Both the position numbers and the translations under genes were made by a program. From positions 1-64,000 of the forward strand of contig NZ_SMSK01000019.1 of NCBI RefSeq assembly GCF_004354985.1: DNA of 64,000 nt. Reading direction: 5' to 3'. Under the pieces are notes generated by a model that saw only the letters and a program-made list of their open reading frames with translations, had not been told where the DNA came from and did not search any database. Positions 24,965-37,315 of the stretch are shown one piece after another (position 1 is the first letter of the stretch; each line of letters opens with the position of its first letter). The DNA comes from Segetibacter sp. 3557_3 (GTDB lineage: Bacteria; Bacteroidota; Bacteroidia; Chitinophagales; Chitinophagaceae).

Positions 24965-25132
24965 ATGCGGGACAGGGTAATAAATAACGGTTTATCGAAA
25001 CAATTCAAGTATCATACGGTGCTTGATCTGTGCGACTGTTATACCTGTTCGTTCAAAGAGTTTCTGCCATTTAACTCCGGTATGTATTACTACTCCAGCT
25101 TCAAAGCTTTTAAAAGTCTTGCCCCGGCCTAA
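24965..25132 (+). CDS. Possible small Cys-containing protein
   Basis: The 55-residue ORF starts at an ATG after an A/T-rich stretch and contains LDLCDCYTCSFKEF, three cysteines in six residues. It is Tyr/Ser/Phe-rich after that. A GC-rich hairpin overlaps its stop codon. No homology is recognised, and a chance ORF is equally possible. Confidence 0.2.
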   Translation: MRDRVINNGLSKQFKYHTVLDLCDCYTCSFKEFLPFNSGMYYYSSFKAFKSLAPA

Positions 25133-25150
25133 CCCTTCGTAGGCTCGGGG
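25122..25150. other. GC-rich hairpin
   Basis: CCCCGGCCTA pairs with TAGGCTCGGGG around ACCCTTCG with one bulged base. No T-tract follows on the plus strand. It may be a 3' end structure of the small ORF or part of an untranslated RNA. Confidence 0.4.
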
Positions 25151-25492
25151 AATGAAACTTCGTTCATCATTATGACCGAAGTTCTATCCAATATGCACGG
25201 AATGTTACCCGGCATACGCATACAGGCTTAATCAAAAGATTTACTATTCATCTGGCTATGCTGTCAGCATCAATTCAGTCAGGTTGCCTGCCCGGCGGGT
25301 GCATCACTCCAAAATATAATTAGTAGTACCAACTGCAACAATCAAAACTTTAGCCTACAGTTTATCGAGGTAACACAATGTGTTGCACCCAGGCAGAGGT
25401 AAGTACAGGTATGTTCCCGCTATAGCCGGATTTCTGCCATGCGTAATTACAAGAAAATAAAAACAATATCATATCAACATAAAATAAACAAG

Positions 25493-25762
25493 ATGTCACG
25501 GAAAGAAAATCTTCCTCCCATCGACGCGACGTTTATCCTGCTATTTGTATTGATGGACGCGTCGGTTTTGGAACATGCATATTTAAACAACAATACCCGG
25601 TACCTTTTTCTAGCATTGTTAGCACCGGTATTGGTTGCCATTTCATGGCTGGTTAGTAAGCGCAGTCATGCAACTCCTGCTGATGAGCCTAAAAAAGGTA
25701 AAACAACCTTTGTAGCCAAATCAGAAGAAGTTAGTCACATAACCTACAGCCAGATGAATTGA
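25493..25762 (+). CDS. Small membrane protein of unknown function
   Basis: About 89 residues from the ATG at 25493 (MSRKENLPPIDATFILLF). An ATG at 25439 adds 18 Lys-rich residues and cannot be excluded. Two hydrophobic segments, FILLFVLMDASVL and YLFLALLAPVLVAISWLV, are separated by a short polar loop (EHAYLNNNTR). A charged cytoplasmic-type tail follows (KRSHATPADEPKKGK). No family was recognised. The gene is convergent with the kinase-associated coiled-coil gene. Confidence 0.5.
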   Translation: MSRKENLPPIDATFILLFVLMDASVLEHAYLNNNTRYLFLALLAPVLVAISWLVSKRSHATPADEPKKGKTTFVAKSEEVSHITYSQMN

Positions 25763-25987
25763 TCATTTTAATTCTTCCGGTTTAAAAAAACGAACGCCAT
25801 TTGTAAGACTGGAATGTTTGTACAACCAGTAGATCCAAACATAGGATTGCTGGTTGAAGGACGTTTTTCCGGGCCCTCCAAATGGCTTTTTGATTCCAGG
25901 TCTTTGCTGAGCAGGGTCAGCTTTGTAATTCGAAAGCGGTAAATATTACAAAAGTGAAAGAACGGGTAAGCACAGGCTATGCACCTT

Positions 25988-26734
25988 TTAAAAGTACTGT
26001 TGAATTTTCTGCAGCTCCGTCTGGATTTCTGCCTGCTTATACTCACCAGCTAACAGGAAAGAGTTTTTCTTGAGGTTTAGCTTATCCTTTGTCTCCGTCA
26101 TTTCCTGGGAGATCTGGCTGATCTCCTTTTTTAGCGCATTTATCTTTTCCGTGAGGGCCTGTAGCTCTTCGGCTTTTTTCTGGATGAGTTGTTCGCGATG
26201 TTTTACTTCCCGTTGGTATTGTTGCGCATGTGCACCCTGGAATGCGTTCAGATCGCGGCCAATAATGTTATGGTATTCCTGTGCAGTAGAAACCAGTTTT
26301 TCTTTAGTTAGCCCCGTTCTTTTCAGCACATTAAATGCCGTACGATACCGGGTTTCTTCATCAGTAATATTGCCGATGTCGGTTTTGCTGTCAATAAATT
26401 CTTTAAAATCGGTGCCTGCAAATAGCGGGTTTTTTGCGTTCGCATCATCTATGAGCTGCTCAAAATATTGTTGGTGCTCCGGTAATGGCAAGCCCGGTGC
26501 GGGTTGTGCCGGGGTGTGCTGAAATGATGCCGGTGCAGGTTGAGACTGTGCCGGCGCGGCTATATTGCTGCCCGTTATTAGTGGATGTTCAACATTCTCC
26601 GGCACGGGTGGCACATAAGCAGCTTCAGGCAAAGGCGCCCGCATTACCGGCGGGGTATTTTGTTTTTCCTCAGTCTTCTTTTTCTCTTCTTCAAATTCAA
26701 CGAAGGGACTTAATATCTGTTTTAGTAAACTCAT
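25988..26734 (-). CDS. Coiled-coil protein, fourth gene of the TerY-phosphatase-kinase operon
   Basis: The 248-residue protein has no signal peptide. The first 20 residues (MSLLKQILSPFVEFEEEKKK) are amphipathic and may touch the membrane. Residues 28-85 are a Pro/Ala-rich linker. A folded helical domain covers about 86-165 (LPEHQQYFEQLIDDANAKN, then DEETRYRTAFNVLKRTGL). From about 170 to 225 there is a heptad-rich coiled coil (QALTEKINALKKEISQISQE). The end KQAEIQTELQKIQQYF looks conserved. It follows the kinase gene by 95 bases on the same strand. Its position makes it a candidate substrate, adaptor or effector of the kinase-phosphatase pair. No enzyme motif is seen. Confidence 0.8.
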   Translation of the reverse strand: MSLLKQILSPFVEFEEEKKKTEEKQNTPPVMRAPLPEAAYVPPVPENVEHPLITGSNIAAPAQSQPAPASFQHTPAQPAPGLPLPEHQQYFEQLIDDANAKNPLFAGTDFKEFIDSKTDIGNITDEETRYRTAFNVLKRTGLTKEKLVSTAQEYHNIIGRDLNAFQGAHAQQYQREVKHREQLIQKKAEELQALTEKINALKKEISQISQEMTETKDKLNLKKNSFLLAGEYKQAEIQTELQKIQQYF

Positions 26735-26829
26735 ATCGGTTAATTGAATTTGTAAAGCTTTGCAATTTGCGTGTCAGGAACTTAACGCTTTAAACCAGGT
26801 ATAAGATTACAAATTATATGCTGCAATGG

Positions 26830-28338
26830 TTATTTATTCGCAATCGTAACCATAACAACCCGGCCCCCATCTTCAGCGCTGAGCAATAGTTTTTTGCCAT
26901 CGGTAATGTCCACCATTTTGCCGGGAGGAATATCCTTGTTCTCTGTCAGGTCTTTTAGCGAGGTTAACTTTTGGTTTACCAGCACCCATTGGCCGTTGTA
27001 GAAAGTAAAATAGCCCACCGGTGTTTTTTGCTCTGGGGTAAGCCGTTCGTTACGTACCACGTTGCGGTTAACGTGCCATTGAAAAAGGTATTGATTGTTG
27101 TACACCATCAACCGGTGGTGTTCGGGTTGCCAAACCGTTGGTCTGAATTCGTAATAGAGGTCCAAAACCGGCACGGTACCATTTACCGGGGTGCCGCAAA
27201 ACGGGCACTTAGGGGTTGTCGTGTTGTCGAATACAAACCACTTCTGGTCGCACCTGCTGTTGCTGCAGGGCTGCATCAGGTCGGTAGTTTTTAGCAATGC
27301 GTGCTCCCAGTTGTCGGCGTTTGGGCGAAGGTTCGGATGATGCAACCCTGCTACAAAAGCGTCGTCAAACAGCTTTTTCAAATAAGGCCCTGTAACAGTA
27401 TAGGGTATCTTGTCCACATCTCCCCAGGGCAGTGCCGATTTAGCAAGCTGGTTTACTTTAGGCCTGTTCGAAAGGTCGGTAGGGTGCTCGATAAACAGTG
27501 CCTTCTCACCCATGCTCAGCAAGTCATCTTTTTCCGTATCAAGGTCGTTTACTTTACCGCCCTTAAGCGGGTGCCGGTAAAGCAGGTACATATAAATCAT
27601 TACGGCCAACGCATGCAGGTCGGTTGTGCGGTTTGCATGTTTCCGGTTTGCGTCTCTAAGGTCCAGGTGTTTGGTAGCGAGCACCTCGGGCGCAATAAAG
27701 TCGGCGGTTCCAATTACATCGGGCGGAAATAATCCCGGCACAACAAGGCCATCAATATCGATGATTGTGGCTGCCCGGCTCACCGGGTCAATCAAAACGT
27801 TTTTGTACGATAAATCCGAATGCGCCAGTCCCGCCGCATGTAATCTTTTTACACCCCGGGCTATCTTAATATTTATCTGGAAGTAGCTCAACCACGATCC
27901 TAGTTCCGACTCGTCGAGCCGGAGCGGAAATTGCCTGTTCCTGAACTTCGACGAAGCAAACCATAAGCCCTGCTTTTCTTTTCCTTTAATGCCTTCGCCA
28001 GTTGCATATCCCTTTTTAAAAAAAAAGTTTTTGTCGTAAGCCGGTACAATCAGGCCAACCTTATCGCCGCTTTCCACCATATCGGTGGGCCAGCAATACA
28101 ATTCCTTATAGTAGTCGCCGTGTTCCCGGTTAAAAAAATTATCGTAGTACTGGGTAACAATTTTGCGCAGCCTTTCTTTTGTATTAAAGTCCTTTGCATC
28201 CCGGTAAAAAGCAACCACATAAGATTTATCCGGGCCGAAATAAACATCCTTCATGCCACCCCGCATCGGTTCCCCATTATCAACATACTGGTAAGTTTTA
28301 CCTGGTGTTATCGCCGATGTCACAGATTTGATACTCAT
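26830..28338 (-). CDS. Ser/Thr kinase with C-terminal zinc ribbon (TPK system)
   Basis: About 502 residues from the ATG at 28338. The frame extends 37 codons upstream, but that part is repeat DNA. The kinase domain has a degenerate glycine loop (MRGGMKDVYFG) and the catalytic loop HSDLSYKN (173-180), with Ser for the usual Arg. The metal site is IIDID (192-196), then APE (216-218) and the helix DLHALAVMIY. A zinc ribbon with Cys358, Cys363, Cys378 and Cys381 follows. The last 110 residues are beta-rich without a recognised name. The order kinase-ribbon and the flanking PP2C and vWA genes match the kinase of TerY-type triads. The protein is cytosolic, with no membrane segment. Confidence 0.87.
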   Translation of the reverse strand: MSIKSVTSAITPGKTYQYVDNGEPMRGGMKDVYFGPDKSYVVAFYRDAKDFNTKERLRKIVTQYYDNFFNREHGDYYKELYCWPTDMVESGDKVGLIVPAYDKNFFFKKGYATGEGIKGKEKQGLWFASSKFRNRQFPLRLDESELGSWLSYFQINIKIARGVKRLHAAGLAHSDLSYKNVLIDPVSRAATIIDIDGLVVPGLFPPDVIGTADFIAPEVLATKHLDLRDANRKHANRTTDLHALAVMIYMYLLYRHPLKGGKVNDLDTEKDDLLSMGEKALFIEHPTDLSNRPKVNQLAKSALPWGDVDKIPYTVTGPYLKKLFDDAFVAGLHHPNLRPNADNWEHALLKTTDLMQPCSNSRCDQKWFVFDNTTTPKCPFCGTPVNGTVPVLDLYYEFRPTVWQPEHHRLMVYNNQYLFQWHVNRNVVRNERLTPEQKTPVGYFTFYNGQWVLVNQKLTSLKDLTENKDIPPGKMVDITDGKKLLLSAEDGGRVVMVTIANK

Positions 28339-28372
28339 TGCTAAAATTTTATTTACGATCCAAACCAGGTTA

Positions 28373-28483
28373 GCTTTTTGGTGACCGGCAGCATAACATT
28401 TCCCTGCATCGTTGCCCGCCCGGCTGACGCCAGTCGGACGCGGTGTCACTCACTTGTACGGCATTTACTTTATTCAGCTTTCG
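28373..28483 (+). repeat. Dispersed repeat element, copy C, inside the TPK operon
   Basis: Starts with GCTTTTTGGTGACCGGC (28373 on), then GCATCGTTG and the GC-rich hairpin CCGGCTGACGCCAGTCGG. The core GTGTCACTCACTTGTAC (28443-28459) ends it. A second hairpin (CCTGCAA and TTTGCAGG) lies just beyond. It occupies the 209-base gap between the phosphatase and kinase genes, on the strand opposite to them. Confidence 0.65.
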
Positions 28484-28547
28484 CGTTGCCTGCAAGCTGC
28501 CGCTGTGTTTGCAGGCAGGCGGGAATGGGAGCACCCGGAAAAACTCC

Positions 28548-29954
28548 TTAGAAAACAATAGCCAGCGTACGGTCGTCATGGTTTCCCGGGCTCCAGAAAT
28601 CCATCCAGGCCGAAAATTGCGAAACGATGTCGGGATTTGCCGTACTCAGTGCTACGCTAATGCCATCTTCGTTTTTACCACCGAGGTCCGCCAAAAACTC
28701 CTTCCACTTTTTTATATTCGGAAGGTTAGCTTCCACTACAAACTTGGCATCATAGATCCCATCCGACATCATAATGAGGTACGAAAAATCTTCAACCACC
28801 TTAAAACCAAATCGGGTTGCAAATTTTTGATCATGAAAAATTTCGGGCATTGTTATAAAGCGGGTACCACCTCCGAATTCGCCAACATCAATCCAGTTCA
28901 TTAAGGTTACTTCGCTTACGTCTTTATTTAACAATGCAATGGGGCAGTCACCAACACCAAACGATAGAAGGGCGTAACCTGTTTCGTACTTTTTAAACAG
29001 GGTAAAAATTAGGGTTGTGTTCAGGTCCTTAACGGGAACAGATACCTCGGCTGCGAAAGCGATCAGCTTTTTATGTACGTGCAGGGCTGCCTTACCAAGG
29101 TTATTGTAAACGTGTTGGTTTATTTTTTTCTGAATCTCTGAGTTATCGGTTTTGTACTGTTTGAGCAGCTCGTCAAAAACAGCCATTCCCTCAACTGCGG
29201 GTTGATCAAGAAAGTATTCAACAACCGTGTTGCAGGCAAGGGCTGAGCCTTTCCTGGAGATCTTTGCACTTCCTGCCCCATCAGCCACCACTACAATGTT
29301 CCAGCCGCCAGGTAGTGCTTTAAACGCAAAATCATCTTCCCTGAAGGAACCGACATTTGCATGTGACCTTCCCCGTTTTGATGAAACAAGAATTGACCTG
29401 TCGCCAAGTGGTTCAAAAGCCGTTACATCATCTTCTTTCCAATAGGGATCCTGCTGATTACTATCCAGCTTCTTCCATAATGATTTCGGATCGGGATTGA
29501 TGATGATTGGAATAACTTTCTCGTGATATGGAGCATCTTCCGGTTCTTCCTGCAACCGATACCTGAACAGCAGCTTGTAGTCGCCGCTTTGCGCGGGCAC
29601 TCCGGATAGCTGGCTTGTTTTCGGGTCGAACGTTAATCCGATATCTTCCAGTCCGGTAAATTCAAAAGCAGCTATATCCTTCCATTTCAACTGGTCAAAG
29701 TCGAACCAGGTTTCGTACGGTTTTCCTACCGTCGCGTTTAATATCCTGACCGGCTGTTGGGCGATGTCCATAATCCTGTTTTCCAGTTTCCACTTTTCCA
29801 TGAGCTCGGTTTGATTTGCCAGCAGTGCGCGAATTACTGCCTCACTACCGGGTTTTTTTATAAACTGTTCGAATATGGCAGCACGGTTTGGCGGTATGGG
29901 AATGTTATTGGCTTCAAACAGCACCTGGACTATTTTCTTGGCATCAGCCATCAT
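28548..29954 (-). CDS. PP2C-type phosphatase with N-terminal Ig-like domain (TPK system)
   Basis: The 468-residue cytosolic protein has three parts. Residues 1-65 are helical. Residues 70-153 resemble a putative Ig (He_PIG-like) domain, with NATVGKPYETWFDF and LTFDPKTSQLSGVPAQSGDY. Residues 185-468 are a PP2C phosphatase with RSHANVGSFREDDF, VVVADGAGSAKISRKGS (222-238), YLIMMSDGIYDAKF and the last Asp in GNHDDRTLAIVF. The acidic residues for two metal ions are present. It lies between the vWA gene and the kinase gene on one strand, so it is the likely antagonist of the kinase. The start is one of two adjacent ATGs. Confidence 0.88.
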   Translation of the reverse strand: MMADAKKIVQVLFEANNIPIPPNRAAIFEQFIKKPGSEAVIRALLANQTELMEKWKLENRIMDIAQQPVRILNATVGKPYETWFDFDQLKWKDIAAFEFTGLEDIGLTFDPKTSQLSGVPAQSGDYKLLFRYRLQEEPEDAPYHEKVIPIIINPDPKSLWKKLDSNQQDPYWKEDDVTAFEPLGDRSILVSSKRGRSHANVGSFREDDFAFKALPGGWNIVVVADGAGSAKISRKGSALACNTVVEYFLDQPAVEGMAVFDELLKQYKTDNSEIQKKINQHVYNNLGKAALHVHKKLIAFAAEVSVPVKDLNTTLIFTLFKKYETGYALLSFGVGDCPIALLNKDVSEVTLMNWIDVGEFGGGTRFITMPEIFHDQKFATRFGFKVVEDFSYLIMMSDGIYDAKFVVEANLPNIKKWKEFLADLGGKNEDGISVALSTANPDIVSQFSAWMDFWSPGNHDDRTLAIVF

Positions 29955-30024
29955 CGGGAGTTTAAGGCAGGCGCATATATCCGGTCGTGCCGTTATACCA
30001 GCCTATGTTGAAGACCTGGATAAG

Positions 30025-30075
30025 TTGTTACAAGGGCGCTGGAAACCGGTATGCCGGCCAAAGCCCTTGTAACAA
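30025..30075. other. Long intercistronic hairpin between the vWA and PP2C genes
   Basis: TTGTTACAAGGGC (30025-30037) and GCCCTTGTAACAA (30063-30075) are a perfect 13-bp inverted repeat. The inner part holds a second small palindrome, CCGGTATGCCGG. No T-tract follows on the minus strand, so an RNA-processing or attenuation role fits better than plain termination. Confidence 0.6.
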
Positions 30076-30097
30076 TTATGCAGCTGTTAAATAGAGA

Positions 30098-30736
30098 TTA
30101 TACAACAATGTTTAACTCAGCGGGGGGAGGTGGCAGTTCACTCAGGCCGGTTACCTCTTTACCTGCGTCTTCTACCCTGGTGGAGGTTACCCCAATGGAT
30201 GCGGTTACCCAGGTAAAGAACTTCGCTATGCTTTGGCTATCGGCGGTATCAAGACTAACTACGTTGTCCGTGATTTGTTTCAGCACATTGGTGTCTGCAT
30301 TGCTGCCGGCAGCACAGGCAACGGTATACGCGGTTTTGCGCTTTTTAAATTCTTCAAGTCCTTTTTGCCAGTCGTCGGTTGGAATACCATCGGTCATGAT
30401 AAACACCAGTGGTTTCCAGTCGCCTTTCTGGTCGGCCGTAGTTTTTGCTACTTCATTATCAATGGAGGTTGCAACAAGGTGTAGTGCCTCGCCGAGATTT
30501 GTTGTGCCGGATGCCTTTATGTCCACCATTTGAAAAGAAGCAAGGTCGGTTAACGGCACAAGTTGCTTTGCAGTACTGTCGAAAGAAATGATACTGATAA
30601 AAGCGGTTTCAATTGCCTGGGGGTTTTGCCGTAATGAACTGATCATTACCTGCACGCCATTTTTTACGGCTTCAATTGGTTCACCGGTCATCGAACCGGA
30701 TGTGTCTAATAAGAGGTATACGGGTAATCTTCTCAT
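30098..30736 (-). CDS. TerY-like von Willebrand factor A protein (TPK system)
   Basis: About 212 residues from the ATG at 30736 (MRRLPVYLLLDTSGSM). The frame runs on upstream to 31033, but that part is repeat and non-coding DNA. The MIDAS metal site is DTSGSM (11-16), with a Thr in KASGTTNLGEAL and an Asp in FIMTDGIPTDDW. The layout and length match TerY of tellurite-resistance loci. It is the first gene of the operon with the PP2C and kinase genes. In related loci TerY-type proteins work with a phosphatase and a kinase. The ligand is unknown. Confidence 0.87.
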   Translation of the reverse strand: MRRLPVYLLLDTSGSMTGEPIEAVKNGVQVMISSLRQNPQAIETAFISIISFDSTAKQLVPLTDLASFQMVDIKASGTTNLGEALHLVATSIDNEVAKTTADQKGDWKPLVFIMTDGIPTDDWQKGLEEFKKRKTAYTVACAAGSNADTNVLKQITDNVVSLDTADSQSIAKFFTWVTASIGVTSTRVEDAGKEVTGLSELPPPPAELNIVV

Positions 30737-31106
30737 TGTATAGTATTTAGATGTAGGTTTTAACTTGTGCATTCTTTTGGGCTGCAGCACCCATAAGACT
30801 GTAACAGTTTTAGCTTGCATGCAAATCCCAGGCCTTGAACTTCTTCCACGAGGCGTTGAAAAAGGCCGGCGATACCATTGATGCTTGTACATCAATAATT
30901 GCCAGAGAACAACCGGGCTATAAAAGGGCAGTTGACCCGGGTGAATAGCATTGTTGCGGTACAAGGGAGTGACACAACAGAAGATCCACAAAGAATCAGT
31001 GCTGGTGCCATAAAAAAACGGGGTGAAGTGCATTTTCAGAAGAATACATTCCTGTTTTTGTTTCTTTTTGTAACAGACACTCCTGGGGCCGGATTTAGCA
31101 GGCCAC
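30737..31106. other. Region upstream of the TPK operon, with repeat copy E
   Basis: About 370 bases between the terY-like gene and the stop of the tricorn-like gene. It holds a dispersed repeat copy at 30941-31021. Only the strand matching the repeat has a long open frame, and it is not counted as a gene. Confidence 0.5.
30941..31021 (-). repeat. Dispersed repeat element, copy E
   Basis: On the minus strand it reads TTTTTTTATGGCACCAGC, then GTTGTGTCACTCCCTTGTAC (ends near 30959), then GCTATTCACCC. The tail GCTATTCACCC is shared with copy G (CTATTCACCC). Confidence 0.65.
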
Positions 31107-34100
31107 CTATTTAGACGACAGGCCCTGTTTGCCGGTTCCGATTTGTTTCAGCAATTCTTTAATCGCAACATCCAATTGTGCATCTTTTTTGGTTTCCCCC
31201 AGAGCATTTGAAACCGGGATGTCGACCGGCCTGGGGTTAAGTTCCATGTTTTTGCCTTCGTGATCGGTAACCTTTATGAAAGGCAGCCTGATGGTTGTGC
31301 CATCGACAAGCGTTGCGGACGAAGTGTAGATGATCCATCCGGCAGTTGGCTCGCCTACCACTTTACCAAGCTTAAGGGTGCGATAGCCTTCCGCAAAATC
31401 CTCAGCATCCGATAAGGAATGTTGGTTAGTTACGAGGATCGTAGGAGCGTCAAGGGCACGCTGCCCCAGCTGGGTACGTGCAGGGGAGGATGGCAATCCA
31501 CGCACGGTCATGGTCATATATCCTTTGCGGCTAAGCACATCGAGCGCATAAGCGTTTACAAAGCCACCATTGTTGTTTCGCACGTCTACCACCACGCCCT
31601 CCCGCGAATGATTTTCCGCGTCAACATCCACGTAAAGCTGGCTTAGCGACTCGGCCGACATATCGTACATGTGCACATACCCGAGCCTGCCTCCACTCAC
31701 ACGGGCAACGTAATCTCTTTGCTGTTGAACCCATTGCTTGTACAGCAAACCTTTTTCAGTTGGCTGGTTAACGGGCCGAACGGTAATCTTGCGTGCATTC
31801 TGGCCGGAACCATTGGCACTAATGGAAAGCACTACCCGGCGGTTAATTTTGTTTTCGAGCAGTTGATCAAGGTTTGTTGTGGCAGTAACAGGTGTTCCAT
31901 CTACCGCAGTAAGAAAGTCGCCCACATTTATTTCGCCGCCCAGTGCAGCCGGCCCCAGGGTAATAACTTCCTTAATCTTTAGCCTTCCTTCGCGTTCATA
32001 TTCCTCTGTATCGAACCGCAGTCCAAGCCTGCCTGTATTAAACGGGGAGGGCGGGCCTGAAATCCCGGAATGTGAAGCATTGAGTTCGCCAACCATCAGG
32101 CTTAGGATCCGGCGTAACTCCTCGGGGGTACTGGCGCCTGCAGCCAGTGGTGCATAGGTAGCTTTAACGGCATTCCAATCGGTGCCATGAAAACCGGGAT
32201 CGTAAAAGCCCTTGTTTTGCACATCCCATGCCTGCCTGAAAACTTCAAGTTTTTCTTTATTAAAGTCGATGTCGAGTTCTGCGGTAACTGCAAGGGGCTT
32301 TACCACCCGGGTATCGAGGCTAACCGATTGAATACGGCCCTGCTCAAGGTAAAAGACCTCTTTGCCGTCGGCAGAAAACTGTGCCGCAGACTTTGATCCG
32401 GGTGTAGACGTAAGCTGCTTGATCACTGCTGGTTCCCTGCTTAACTCATCGAGCGAATAGGTATACAGGTTTACCTGGCCTGCAACGGAAGCGGTTATCA
32501 AAAGCGTATTTCCATCCTTGCTGATGCTGTGTTCGTTTACATCCACCCCAAGTGGCAGCAGGTTGAGGCGTTGCCTGATACCATCAAAAACAAAATTGAC
32601 GGGTTCTGCAGGTGTTTTTACACCTGGCTTACTTTTGAACATGGTATCATTAGAGCGACTGTTTTTTTCTGTAGCCGGTTTCTGCTGGGCAGGGTTGCCA
32701 GGTGTTGTTGTGGTGGTAGGTTGCACCTGTTCGATGAACATATTCTGGAACTGGTCCTCGCGGAAACGTGGTCTTTGCGGCACCAGGTCAACACGGGCAA
32801 CAAAGCCGTTTTCGGTGCGCTGCCCGGTTGTAAACAGGATGTATTTGCTATCTGCACTCCAGTTTATTTCGCCACCAAATGTGTTTGCAAGAAAACTTAC
32901 AGCTCTTGCTTCACCGCCCGCTGACGGTACAATGCTAATGTTGCGGAACGACTTTAACCCGAAAGATGCATAAGCGAGGTACTTGCCGTCGGGCGACCAG
33001 CTCACGGATCCCTGCGAAGAAAATGGTGGACGTCCGAACGCGCCTTTTGCCACAACCACTTCTTTTTTTGTAGCCAGGTCCATCACCCGCAGTTCTGCCC
33101 CGTCGCGCACAAAGGCAAGTGACTTTCCATCGGGCGAAAACACGGGTGCCCCATCATCCTTTTCGCTGCTCGTGAGCCTTGTTTCGATTAGCGAGATAAA
33201 GTTGTACTGATAAATGTTTGCATTGCCGTCCCTGTCGGAAAGGTATAGAAGGCTGTTGCTATTTGGCGACCACTCCAGCTGCGACTCATTTGCGCCGGTG
33301 TTGGTAACCCGCATCGCATCGCCCCCATCCTTTGCCGACGATACAAATACGTCGCCATGCGCTGTAAAGGCAATTTTTTTTCCATCAGGTGAAAGAGAAA
33401 GATCCCTGAACTGGGTGGTGAGGCGTACGTGCTCGACACCCGGTCCTGCGGGTGCGCCTTTGCGGGTAATGTTTATTGGCGATGCTTGTGCTGTACTAAT
33501 GTTATACTTCCAGATACCGAAATCGCGTTCGAAAACAATAGACTGTCCGTTGGAGGCTATGGTTGGAAATAGTACACGTCCCTGCTTAAAACGGGTAAGT
33601 TGTTTTGGCGTGCCATTCAGTTCCCGGATGTAAAGGTTTTGAGCACCATCCCTATCCGATACATAATACAACGATTTTCCATCGCTGCTCCACATAGGCC
33701 ATAGTTCCTTTGCACCTCCCAATGTAATTTTCTCGTAAACAGGGGTTGTTCCTGCTTTCATTAACCAAATCTCTGACTCATCGAGGTGGCTGCGTCCATT
33801 GCGCCACCACTGTGCAGCGGCAACGCCCCGGGCTGTAATGGCAAGTGTTTTACCGTCTGGTGAAGGCATTGGGAAAAACTCGCTGAGGTAGCGGTTCTCA
33901 CTTACTGCCATTGGTGTACCACCGTTTACGCTTACCCTGAACACGTCGCGCATACCGGCAATTTCCCTGCTGGAGGAAGAAAAGTAAATGTACCTACCGT
34001 CTTTTGACCAGGCATTGATGTCGTCCAGCCCATCATCGTAAGTAAGGCGTTTTAAGACACCTGTATTTAGCTGCATGACATAGATATCGCCGCTGCCGGA

Positions 34101-36553: not shown

Positions 36554-37315
36554 TTATTTTCTGCCACCCAGCAAACCGCCGAGCAGGCCACCCATGCTTC
36601 CCATTCCACGGCCGCCACTTAACATGCCAATGAGCGAGCCTAAGCCTCCGCCCATTCCGCCTCCACCCATCATTCCGCCACCGCCCATCATTCCACCACC
36701 CATTCCTCCGCCGAGCAAGCCGCCGAGTAAACCTCCACCTGAACTCCGCCGATTGGAACCGCCCATCATTCGTGATAAAATAAAGGGTGCGGCCATGCCG
36801 AGCAAGCCTTTGAATAAACTGCTGCTGTTGATTCCTGCACTTTGCATTTTTTGCTGCAAACCGGTTGATGCAAGAAAGTTTGGACTTGATACCTGCTCGG
36901 GTGTAACCTGGCCATTGGTAGCTTCGTCTGCTACATTGTTCAGCACAGAGAACTGCTCCTGTTGTATACCCAGGTATTGAGCCATTTTTGATACTAGCTG
37001 ATGCTCTTCTTCTGAATAATCCTGGTCGGCTTTAGCAAAGGTGATCAGGTCTGTGATAAAGGAATACTTTAGTTCACTGTTCTTTAATATATCAAGTGAG
37101 CTGGTAACGTTCGAGGTGCCTTGTTCAAGCGCAATGTTTGTTACCGCCTGGGTTTGCTGTTCAGACAGTTGTGCTGCGCTACAAAGTGTAGACAGGTATT
37201 CAATTTCGTCCTCACTAGCTTGCCTGTCTGCCGTAGCCAAAGAAGCAATTGCACTGATATAAGCTCCTTTTTCAACATCAGAATAACCTTCGAGAATTGT
37301 GGCTGAATTTTCCAT
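36554..37315 (-). CDS. TerB-like protein with Gly/Met-rich C-terminal tail
   Basis: The 253-residue protein has an N-terminal TerB-like helical domain (residues about 1-135), with paired acidic helices (DRQASEDEIEYLSTLC and KADQDYSEEEHQLVSKMA) typical of tellurite-resistance TerB and DUF533 relatives. A linker of about 40 residues and a hydrophobic patch (GLLGMAAPFILSRMMGG) follow. The last 70 residues are almost only Gly, Met, Leu and Ser (GMGGGMMGGGG). It is cytosolic, with no signal peptide. It is 6 kb upstream of the TPK genes on the same strand, separated by two unrelated genes. The role is unknown; metal-related stress is a guess from the TerB fold. Confidence 0.75.
   Translation of the reverse strand: MENSATILEGYSDVEKGAYISAIASLATADRQASEDEIEYLSTLCSAAQLSEQQTQAVTNIALEQGTSNVTSSLDILKNSELKYSFITDLITFAKADQDYSEEEHQLVSKMAQYLGIQQEQFSVLNNVADEATNGQVTPEQVSSPNFLASTGLQQKMQSAGINSSSLFKGLLGMAAPFILSRMMGGSNRRSSGGGLLGGLLGGGMGGGMMGGGGMMGGGGMGGGLGSLIGMLSGGRGMGSMGGLLGGLLGGRK

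Follow-up and report, generated by a model that had tools for sequence, protein, structure and literature searches.

What does a TerY-P triad act on where no TerD gene accompanies it? The question is raised by a locus of Segetibacter sp. 3557_3, within the first 64,000 nucleotides of contig NZ_SMSK01000019.1, the whole of which is referred to here as the window. Four genes at 25988 to 30736 of the window encode a vWA protein, a PP2C phosphatase, a Ser/Thr kinase, and a coiled-coil protein that we call cc. To our knowledge, the phosphorylation targets of TerY-P triads are unknown. We found that triads without TerD in this family (Chitinophagaceae) are tied to cc and, in most loci, to a fifth gene, perB, and we consider it somewhat more probable than the contrary that the locus is a derived, TerD-less TerY-P switch ("type II") acting with a perB-cc envelope pair.

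The triad and its coiled-coil gene

The genes and motifs of the locus lie at the following positions of the window.

30098..30736, minus strand: vWA protein, TerY-type, 212 residues (Pfam VWA, 4e-16)
30689-30706, minus strand: metal ion-dependent adhesion site (MIDAS) DTSGSM of the vWA protein
28548..29951, minus strand: PP2C phosphatase, 467 residues (Pfam PP2C_2, 4.5e-29)
26830..28338, minus strand: Ser/Thr kinase, 502 residues (Pfam Pkinase, 5e-10)
27196-27267, minus strand: zinc ribbon of the kinase
26735..26829, minus strand: 95-bp gap between the kinase and cc genes, the place of perB in most relatives
25988..26734, minus strand: cc, coiled-coil protein, 248 residues (weak coiled-coil Pfam matches below cut-off)
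26693-26734, minus strand: N-terminal amphipathic segment of cc
26576-26587, minus strand: HPLI motif of cc, inside a disordered Pro-rich linker
25994-26305, minus strand: long C-terminal helix of cc (AlphaFold2 model)

The first-pass annotation of the window had described four co-directional genes for these proteins, and this was confirmed: all four reading frames, with starts chosen from relatives, are open on the minus strand, and Pfam matches identify the first three products. The gaps between them are 146 bp (vWA to PP2C), 209 bp (PP2C to kinase), and 95 bp (kinase to cc). The MIDAS proved as perfect as had been claimed, its residues (DxSxS...T...D) being complete and invariant in all eight aligned proteins, and vWA proteins of the type II loci holding the gene share 89 to 94% identity. 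The PP2C motifs were likewise invariant in eight of eight aligned proteins. The kinase kept its H-D-N and D-x-D-G residues in 40 to 41 of the 41 rows with a residue there (42-row alignment) and the four zinc-ribbon cysteines in all 42 rows. The vWA-PP2C-kinase set is a true TerY-P triad; its earlier assignment to the Ter type is borne out by the MIDAS, the PP2C motifs, and the catalytic and zinc-ribbon residues.

No terC, terD, or terZ gene had been seen in the window, and this held up as well. Of the 35 other window proteins that were scanned with Pfam, at E 1e-5 for part of them and E 1e-8 for the rest, none matched a TerD or TerC family, smaller reading frames lying outside the scan. TerD (PF02342) had no match anywhere in the 6.7-Mb genome; for TerC the negative covers the scanned window proteins, and no genome-wide search was made.

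Further features of the phosphatase and the kinase were observed. The PP2C protein has an additional N-terminal region of about 190 residues, with a possible but weak immunoglobulin-like part; the segment at 29457-29774 resembles an immunoglobulin-like repeat, with He_PIG matches in two of eight members (best E, 0.12). The kinase has a C-terminal region of about 120 residues beyond the zinc ribbon with no assigned fold. An AlphaFold model of the kinase from a three-row alignment had a mean predicted local distance difference test score (pLDDT) of 32 and was set aside. Lys30 of the kinase (window 28249-28251), in the glycine-rich loop, is an invariant Lys in all 40 rows with a residue there. 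The beta-3 Lys is absent from its usual place, as aligned by eye, and a nearby position holds Arg in 38 of 40 rows and Lys in 2. A glycine-loop Lys in a kinase family without the beta-3 Lys recalls the arrangement of eukaryotic WNK kinases.

Two types of triad loci

A kinase profile matched 34 of 394 family genomes, the window's included. We surveyed the window together with the fetched surroundings of the other 33 kinase loci and assigned each locus to one of two types by its content, so the kinase tree and the genome-wide searches serve as independent tests of the division. Type I comprised 20 loci, with TerD in 17 and a TerC-like gene in 19 within the stretch; 19 of the 20 adjoin TerD and/or TerC-like genes, most have further vWA genes, and 4 have TelA. 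The "TerC-like" label rests on two proteins (L028 and L029) named by eye without a Pfam scan; on a Hymenobacter monticola plasmid, the gene in the TerC-like position is annotated as a DUF475 protein. One locus (L040, genome G351) was counted as type I for having neither cc nor perB; its stretch also lacks TerD, TerC-like, and vWA genes, and the TerD of that genome sits on another contig. In genome G343, a TerC-like gene adjoins the kinase gene and there is no TerD match.

Type II comprised 14 loci from five genera, with the order vWA-PP2C-kinase-(perB)-cc. None of their stretches contained TerD, TelA, TerC-like, or extra vWA genes, and in one (G007) the vWA gene of the triad lies past the contig end. 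cc was present in all 13 uncut type II loci, from four genera, the fourteenth (G221) ending inside perB, whereas cc, perB, and a third gene, memB, were found in none of the 20 type I loci. A link between the fourth gene and the triad, which the first-pass annotation had proposed to check, thus exists in the TerD-less loci. Genome-wide, TerD was found in 0 of 14 type II genomes versus 19 of 20 type I genomes.

General synteny was rejected as the cause of this linkage. Of the 13 other type II stretches, 12 contain none of the window's flank genes; the remaining one has only a weak match to a widespread two-component propeller family. Flanks are shared between type II stretches only among G005, G008, and G009 (all pairs); G221 and G189, with zero and one flank gene in the stretch, are hardly informative in this comparison. 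Since cc is retained in 13 of 13 loci although the flanks vary, the linkage exceeds synteny.

The kinases of the 14 type II loci formed one clade with support of 100/100, nested among type I kinases, in a tree of 42 kinases that kept two contig-end-cut rows as they are and left out a second kinase piece of G396. Because the clade is nested in this way, the triad appears to have left the Ter setting once, with a single switch of partners from Ter genes to perB and cc in the type II lineage, as far as this sample shows. Within the clade, the kinases of the window, G004, and G007 group together (100/99). The window's kinase has 60 to 78% identity to the type I kinases of the family and 55%, over 99% of its length, to enterobacterial plasmid proteins. 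Class-wide, the kinase occurred in 9 of 395 genomes, including the window's; six of the other eight are Ter-linked and none has cc or perB at the locus, the remainder being one locus cut by its contig (L081) and one too distant to place (L083).

In five type I Ter clusters (L028, L037-L039, and L077), TelA is followed by a protein of about 320 residues (L028:5715-6677) for which Pfam gave weak matches only.

perB, the usual fifth gene

perB follows the kinase gene in 11 of the 14 type II loci (including G221, whose contig ends within perB), and it ends 3 to 11 bp upstream of cc in all 10 complete loci with both genes. Among the 394 family genomes, perB was detected in 29, namely every one of the 14 type II genomes (in two of them as a contig-end piece), G006, and 14 genomes that lack the kinase; none of the 20 type I genomes showed it. 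In the window's genome, perB lies on a different contig (G000:C33:117804-118805), with memB and a second cc as neighbors. G004 likewise has it in a separate locus of the order cc'-memB-perB, and G007 has only a contig-end piece. The four-gene unit of the first-pass annotation therefore stands as to the membership of cc but was incomplete: perB usually stands as a fifth gene between those for the kinase and cc. cc pairs closely with perB rather than standing alone as an output.

The perB protein is probably single-pass with its main domain in the periplasm. In 11 of 14 proteins, there is more positive charge ahead of the membrane segment than after it, and the N termini of two distant relatives look like those of secreted proteins; membrane segments and signal-peptide-like starts were judged by eye and with a simple hydropathy sum rather than a predictor. 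The N-terminal anchor resembles that of an OmpA-carrying protein of sister modules (see below), and FSKFLIT is common to both proteins in G046. perB also looks weakly Ppx-like: Pfam, PDB, and profile comparison aligned the same stretch to Ppx/GppA, each below firm significance. ATP is not expected in the periplasm, which makes a sensing role likelier for perB than ATPase activity.

The membrane module shared by cc and perB

cc and perB, with memB, also form a separate membrane module. cc relatives were found in 53 of 394 family genomes. Among the cc-only loci found, 18 stretches were fetched, and in all 18 cc is followed by memB, whose product is a coiled-coil protein that seems to have membrane segments. 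A membrane-anchored protein of 588 to 613 residues comes next in 17, the eighteenth ending at a contig end. Two such proteins were scanned (L059 and, from another family, L025); both carry an OmpA domain, and that of L025 also a substrate-binding domain. Several cc modules include a permease-like gene. Among 15 perB loci without the triad, cc lies upstream in 11 and memB was detected in 9. Weak PspA/IM30 matches were obtained for 5 of 11 memB proteins (best, 6e-6). Twelve of the 14 type II genomes lack memB, and the other two have it at another locus; the type II operon has no PspA/Snf7-like subunit. We infer that the triad acquired perB and cc from a cc-memB-perB module, not the reverse.

Comparison of the cc-memB-OmpA-type modules (L058-L075) with the perB modules (L094-L108) showed that the OmpA-carrying protein and perB seem to share the slot after memB while differing in their outer domains. 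Their membrane anchors are partly alike, as if sensors had been swapped in one module; the perB anchors of L096-L108 are unlike the KLKPAGK type. Homology between cc and memB was considered as well, and none is claimed, the profile comparison having given 5% probability.

Features of the cc protein

The AlphaFold2 model of cc had a mean pLDDT of 64, with an average of at least 90 over residues 181 to 240 and values below 50 for nearly all of residues 11 to 83. It shows a disordered Pro-rich linker, short helices, and one long C-terminal helix, of which the long helix alone is reliable. The first 14 residues are amphipathic beyond shuffled sequences in 31 of 32 family members scored (p ≤ 0.041); 5 of 37 rows had no comparable N terminus and were omitted, and the single miss (L064) took the wrong stretch. 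Pfam found no catalytic domain in cc and no PspA match.

All 13 type II cc proteins contain HPLI followed by T, N, or D, whereas two sets of cc proteins from other modules, of 3 and 21 members, lack it throughout. The motif marks triad-linked cc and is a candidate docking motif.

Neighboring genes and plasmid-borne relatives

One neighbor in the window recalls Ter systems by its domain.

36554-37315, minus strand: TerB-domain protein with a glycine-rich tail (PF05099, 9.1e-12, above cut-off)

Two genes separate it from the vWA gene of the triad, and it has no relative in the 13 other type II stretches.

Outside the order, a plasmid of Hymenobacter volaticus (L092, NZ_CP095064.1) has the same vWA-PP2C-kinase-perB-cc order, with HPLI in cc, which suggests that the five-gene set can move. 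In this copy, the PP2C, kinase, and cc genes are split over frames, by decay or sequencing error. The kinase was matched by 2354 plasmid records, and only the H. volaticus plasmid matched cc. Phage records gave one 26% kinase match over half of the query, and a pattern scan of viral contigs (42 stretches) gave no cc relative. A plasmid of Hymenobacter sp. YIM 151858-1 (L093) carries a perB relative with a signal-peptide-like start near PAS-domain genes, with no annotated triad genes near it in that stretch.

Function of the locus

The triad most likely controls, or responds to, the envelope perB-cc pair. On the reading that we favor, a Ter-linked triad would have shed TerD together with the TerC-like and additional vWA genes and gained perB and cc from the envelope module. 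perB would be a single-pass membrane protein whose Ppx-like domain senses something on the periplasmic side, and cc would be the coiled-coil protein paired with it on the cytoplasmic side, attached to the membrane through the N-terminal amphipathic segment. The kinase, perhaps docked through HPLI in the disordered linker of cc, would phosphorylate cc or the perB-cc complex; we infer such phosphorylation of cc from sequence only. PP2C would remove the phosphorylation set by the kinase, and the vWA protein would be a metal-dependent scaffold, the outcome being a phospho-switch that responds reversibly to envelope stress. In the window's organism, where the operon lacks perB, perB would have to act from the second locus, beside memB and the second cc.

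A fuller version is put forward tentatively, the balance being somewhat against it: transmembrane phospho-signaling, with a periplasmic Ppx-like perB wired through membrane-bound cc to the cytoplasmic triad and the Ter effectors swapped for envelope-module parts, the window's lineage borrowing perB and cross-talking with its cc-memB-perB module. Whether cc and perB are input or output is not fixed by sequence. cc as the output of the triad, as the first-pass annotation suggested, is one of two directions that the evidence allows; we weight it somewhat above input because the triad-specific motif HPLI sits in cc.

Several observations weigh against the favored reading. perB lies outside the operon in 3 of the 14 type II loci (window, G004, and G007), and in G005 an opposite-strand gene separates kinase and perB. 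The Ppx-like character of perB has slender statistics: Pfam PF02541 matched two of four perB-like proteins at 20.0 and 23.7 bits (E, 5.3e-4 and 3.9e-5), below the cut-off of 27, and the other two not at all; hhalign gave a weak 15% probability (E, 0.0018); and the best PDB match of the perB profile was an unrelated S-adenosylmethionine decarboxylase (0.0094), ahead of exopolyphosphatases (0.17 to 0.51). A scan of 25001-32000 with a Bacteroidota-type promoter motif gave no full match and a single -7-like element at 25843, downstream of cc; with no promoter match at the expected place and gaps of 95 to 209 bp, co-transcription is presumptive. HPLI with its next residue was rejected as a required phosphosite, since that residue varies among T, N, and D. 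The cc tree leaves the separation of type II cc from C33-type cc unsettled, the branch side appearing in 10% of bootstrap trees. The phosphorylation, interaction, and phenotype that the reading supposes would all go beyond what sequence comparison displays.

The nearest alternative overlaps with the favored reading and keeps the same parts in the reverse direction, perB-cc sensor input switching a triad whose true substrates lie elsewhere. perB resembles an exported sensor and takes the slot of the OmpA-carrying protein in sister modules, and cc has no catalytic domain; however, HPLI is found only in triad-linked cc, which fits kinase or phosphatase docking at least as well, and we regard this direction as rather unlikely. 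We think it improbable that the locus is a stand-alone anti-phage module, with the triad as detector of infection and cc as effector. Activity of TerY-P systems against T7-like phages has been reported (PMC7699616 and PMC11090510), and the set occurs in varied surroundings and on a Hymenobacter plasmid, as accessory systems do. However, the vWA and PP2C proteins had no PADLOC match, whether PADLOC-DB includes TerY-P models not being established. The matches of the kinase (PD-T4-6, mads_6, MkoA, and others) were weak, lay in the kinase core, belonged to models of other defense kinases, and were rejected. Nine of 10 flanking proteins had no match at E 1e-4, and the TerB-domain protein had two weak ones (1.1e-5 and 1.9e-5). 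The flanks are mostly housekeeping genes, the pattern scan of viral contigs gave no cc relative, Pfam found no nuclease or killing domain, and a zinc ribbon stands where antiphage kinases are described with an OB-fold (PMC11090510). The defense role that the first-pass annotation had offered thus gained no specific support.

A reduced tellurite or metal-stress module, keeping the old Ter job with fewer parts, seems to us just as improbable as the anti-phage module. It would account for a triad that is the same as in Ter clusters, a kinase 55% identical to enterobacterial plasmid proteins, and the retained MIDAS and zinc ribbon, but not for the genome-wide absence of TerD from 14 of 14 type II genomes, the absence of TerC-like genes and TelA from their stretches, or the other dedicated partners. 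We give very little credence to cc as a passive neighbor or to the window's four-gene form as a decaying remnant after loss of perB. The operons of the window, G004, and G007 do lack perB and their kinases form one clade; yet cc persists in 13 of 13 loci despite changing flanks, all four reading frames are open with conserved catalytic residues, and perB is present elsewhere in these three genomes (in G007, as the contig-end piece).

Relation to known systems and significance

The TerY-P triad itself is already known; what is new is a TerD-less triad tied to perB and cc. TerY-P triads have been hypothesized to be metal-sensing phosphorylation switches (PMC11090510), and TerY-P or OB-fold variants have been described as antiphage systems (PMC11090510 and PMC7699616), stand-alone ones by Gao et al. 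2020 as cited in those two papers. The triads of Ter clusters match this one in their three proteins and gene order, including the vWA MIDAS, the PP2C, and a kinase that carries a zinc ribbon, but are accompanied by TerD, TerC-like, TelA, and extra vWA genes where perB and cc stand here. TerY-P triads within CoCoNuT restriction systems (PMC11090510) resemble the locus in placing a triad with a zinc ribbon alongside coiled-coil proteins; their partners include a helicase and a nuclease, whereas Pfam found neither among the four genes and their nearest neighbors here. The stand-alone antiphage systems share a phospho-switch outside a Ter cluster and appear to differ in the kinase, which is described there with an OB-fold and here carries a zinc ribbon followed by about 120 residues of unassigned fold; perB and cc are additional here.

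The home module of cc is closest to PspA/Snf7 operons described with a transmembrane segment, PBPB-OmpA, and an ABC permease (PMC11237479). Both have a membrane coiled-coil protein, here with weak PspA matches, an OmpA protein, and, in several of our loci, a permease-like gene; in contrast to those operons, perB replaces the OmpA-carrying protein in some modules, and memB is missing from most type II genomes (12 of 14). In the literature searched, mainly outside subscription journals and seen in part, we met neither a combination of a TerY triad with a Ppx-like protein and the cc family nor a reported target of a TerY-P triad.

A lineage that kept the switch and exchanged its partners narrows the candidate targets to cc and perB. 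The Ter-linked and TerD-less triads of related bacteria form a comparison pair, and the change of partners points to a different, probably envelope-related job for the triad in the TerD-less lineage.

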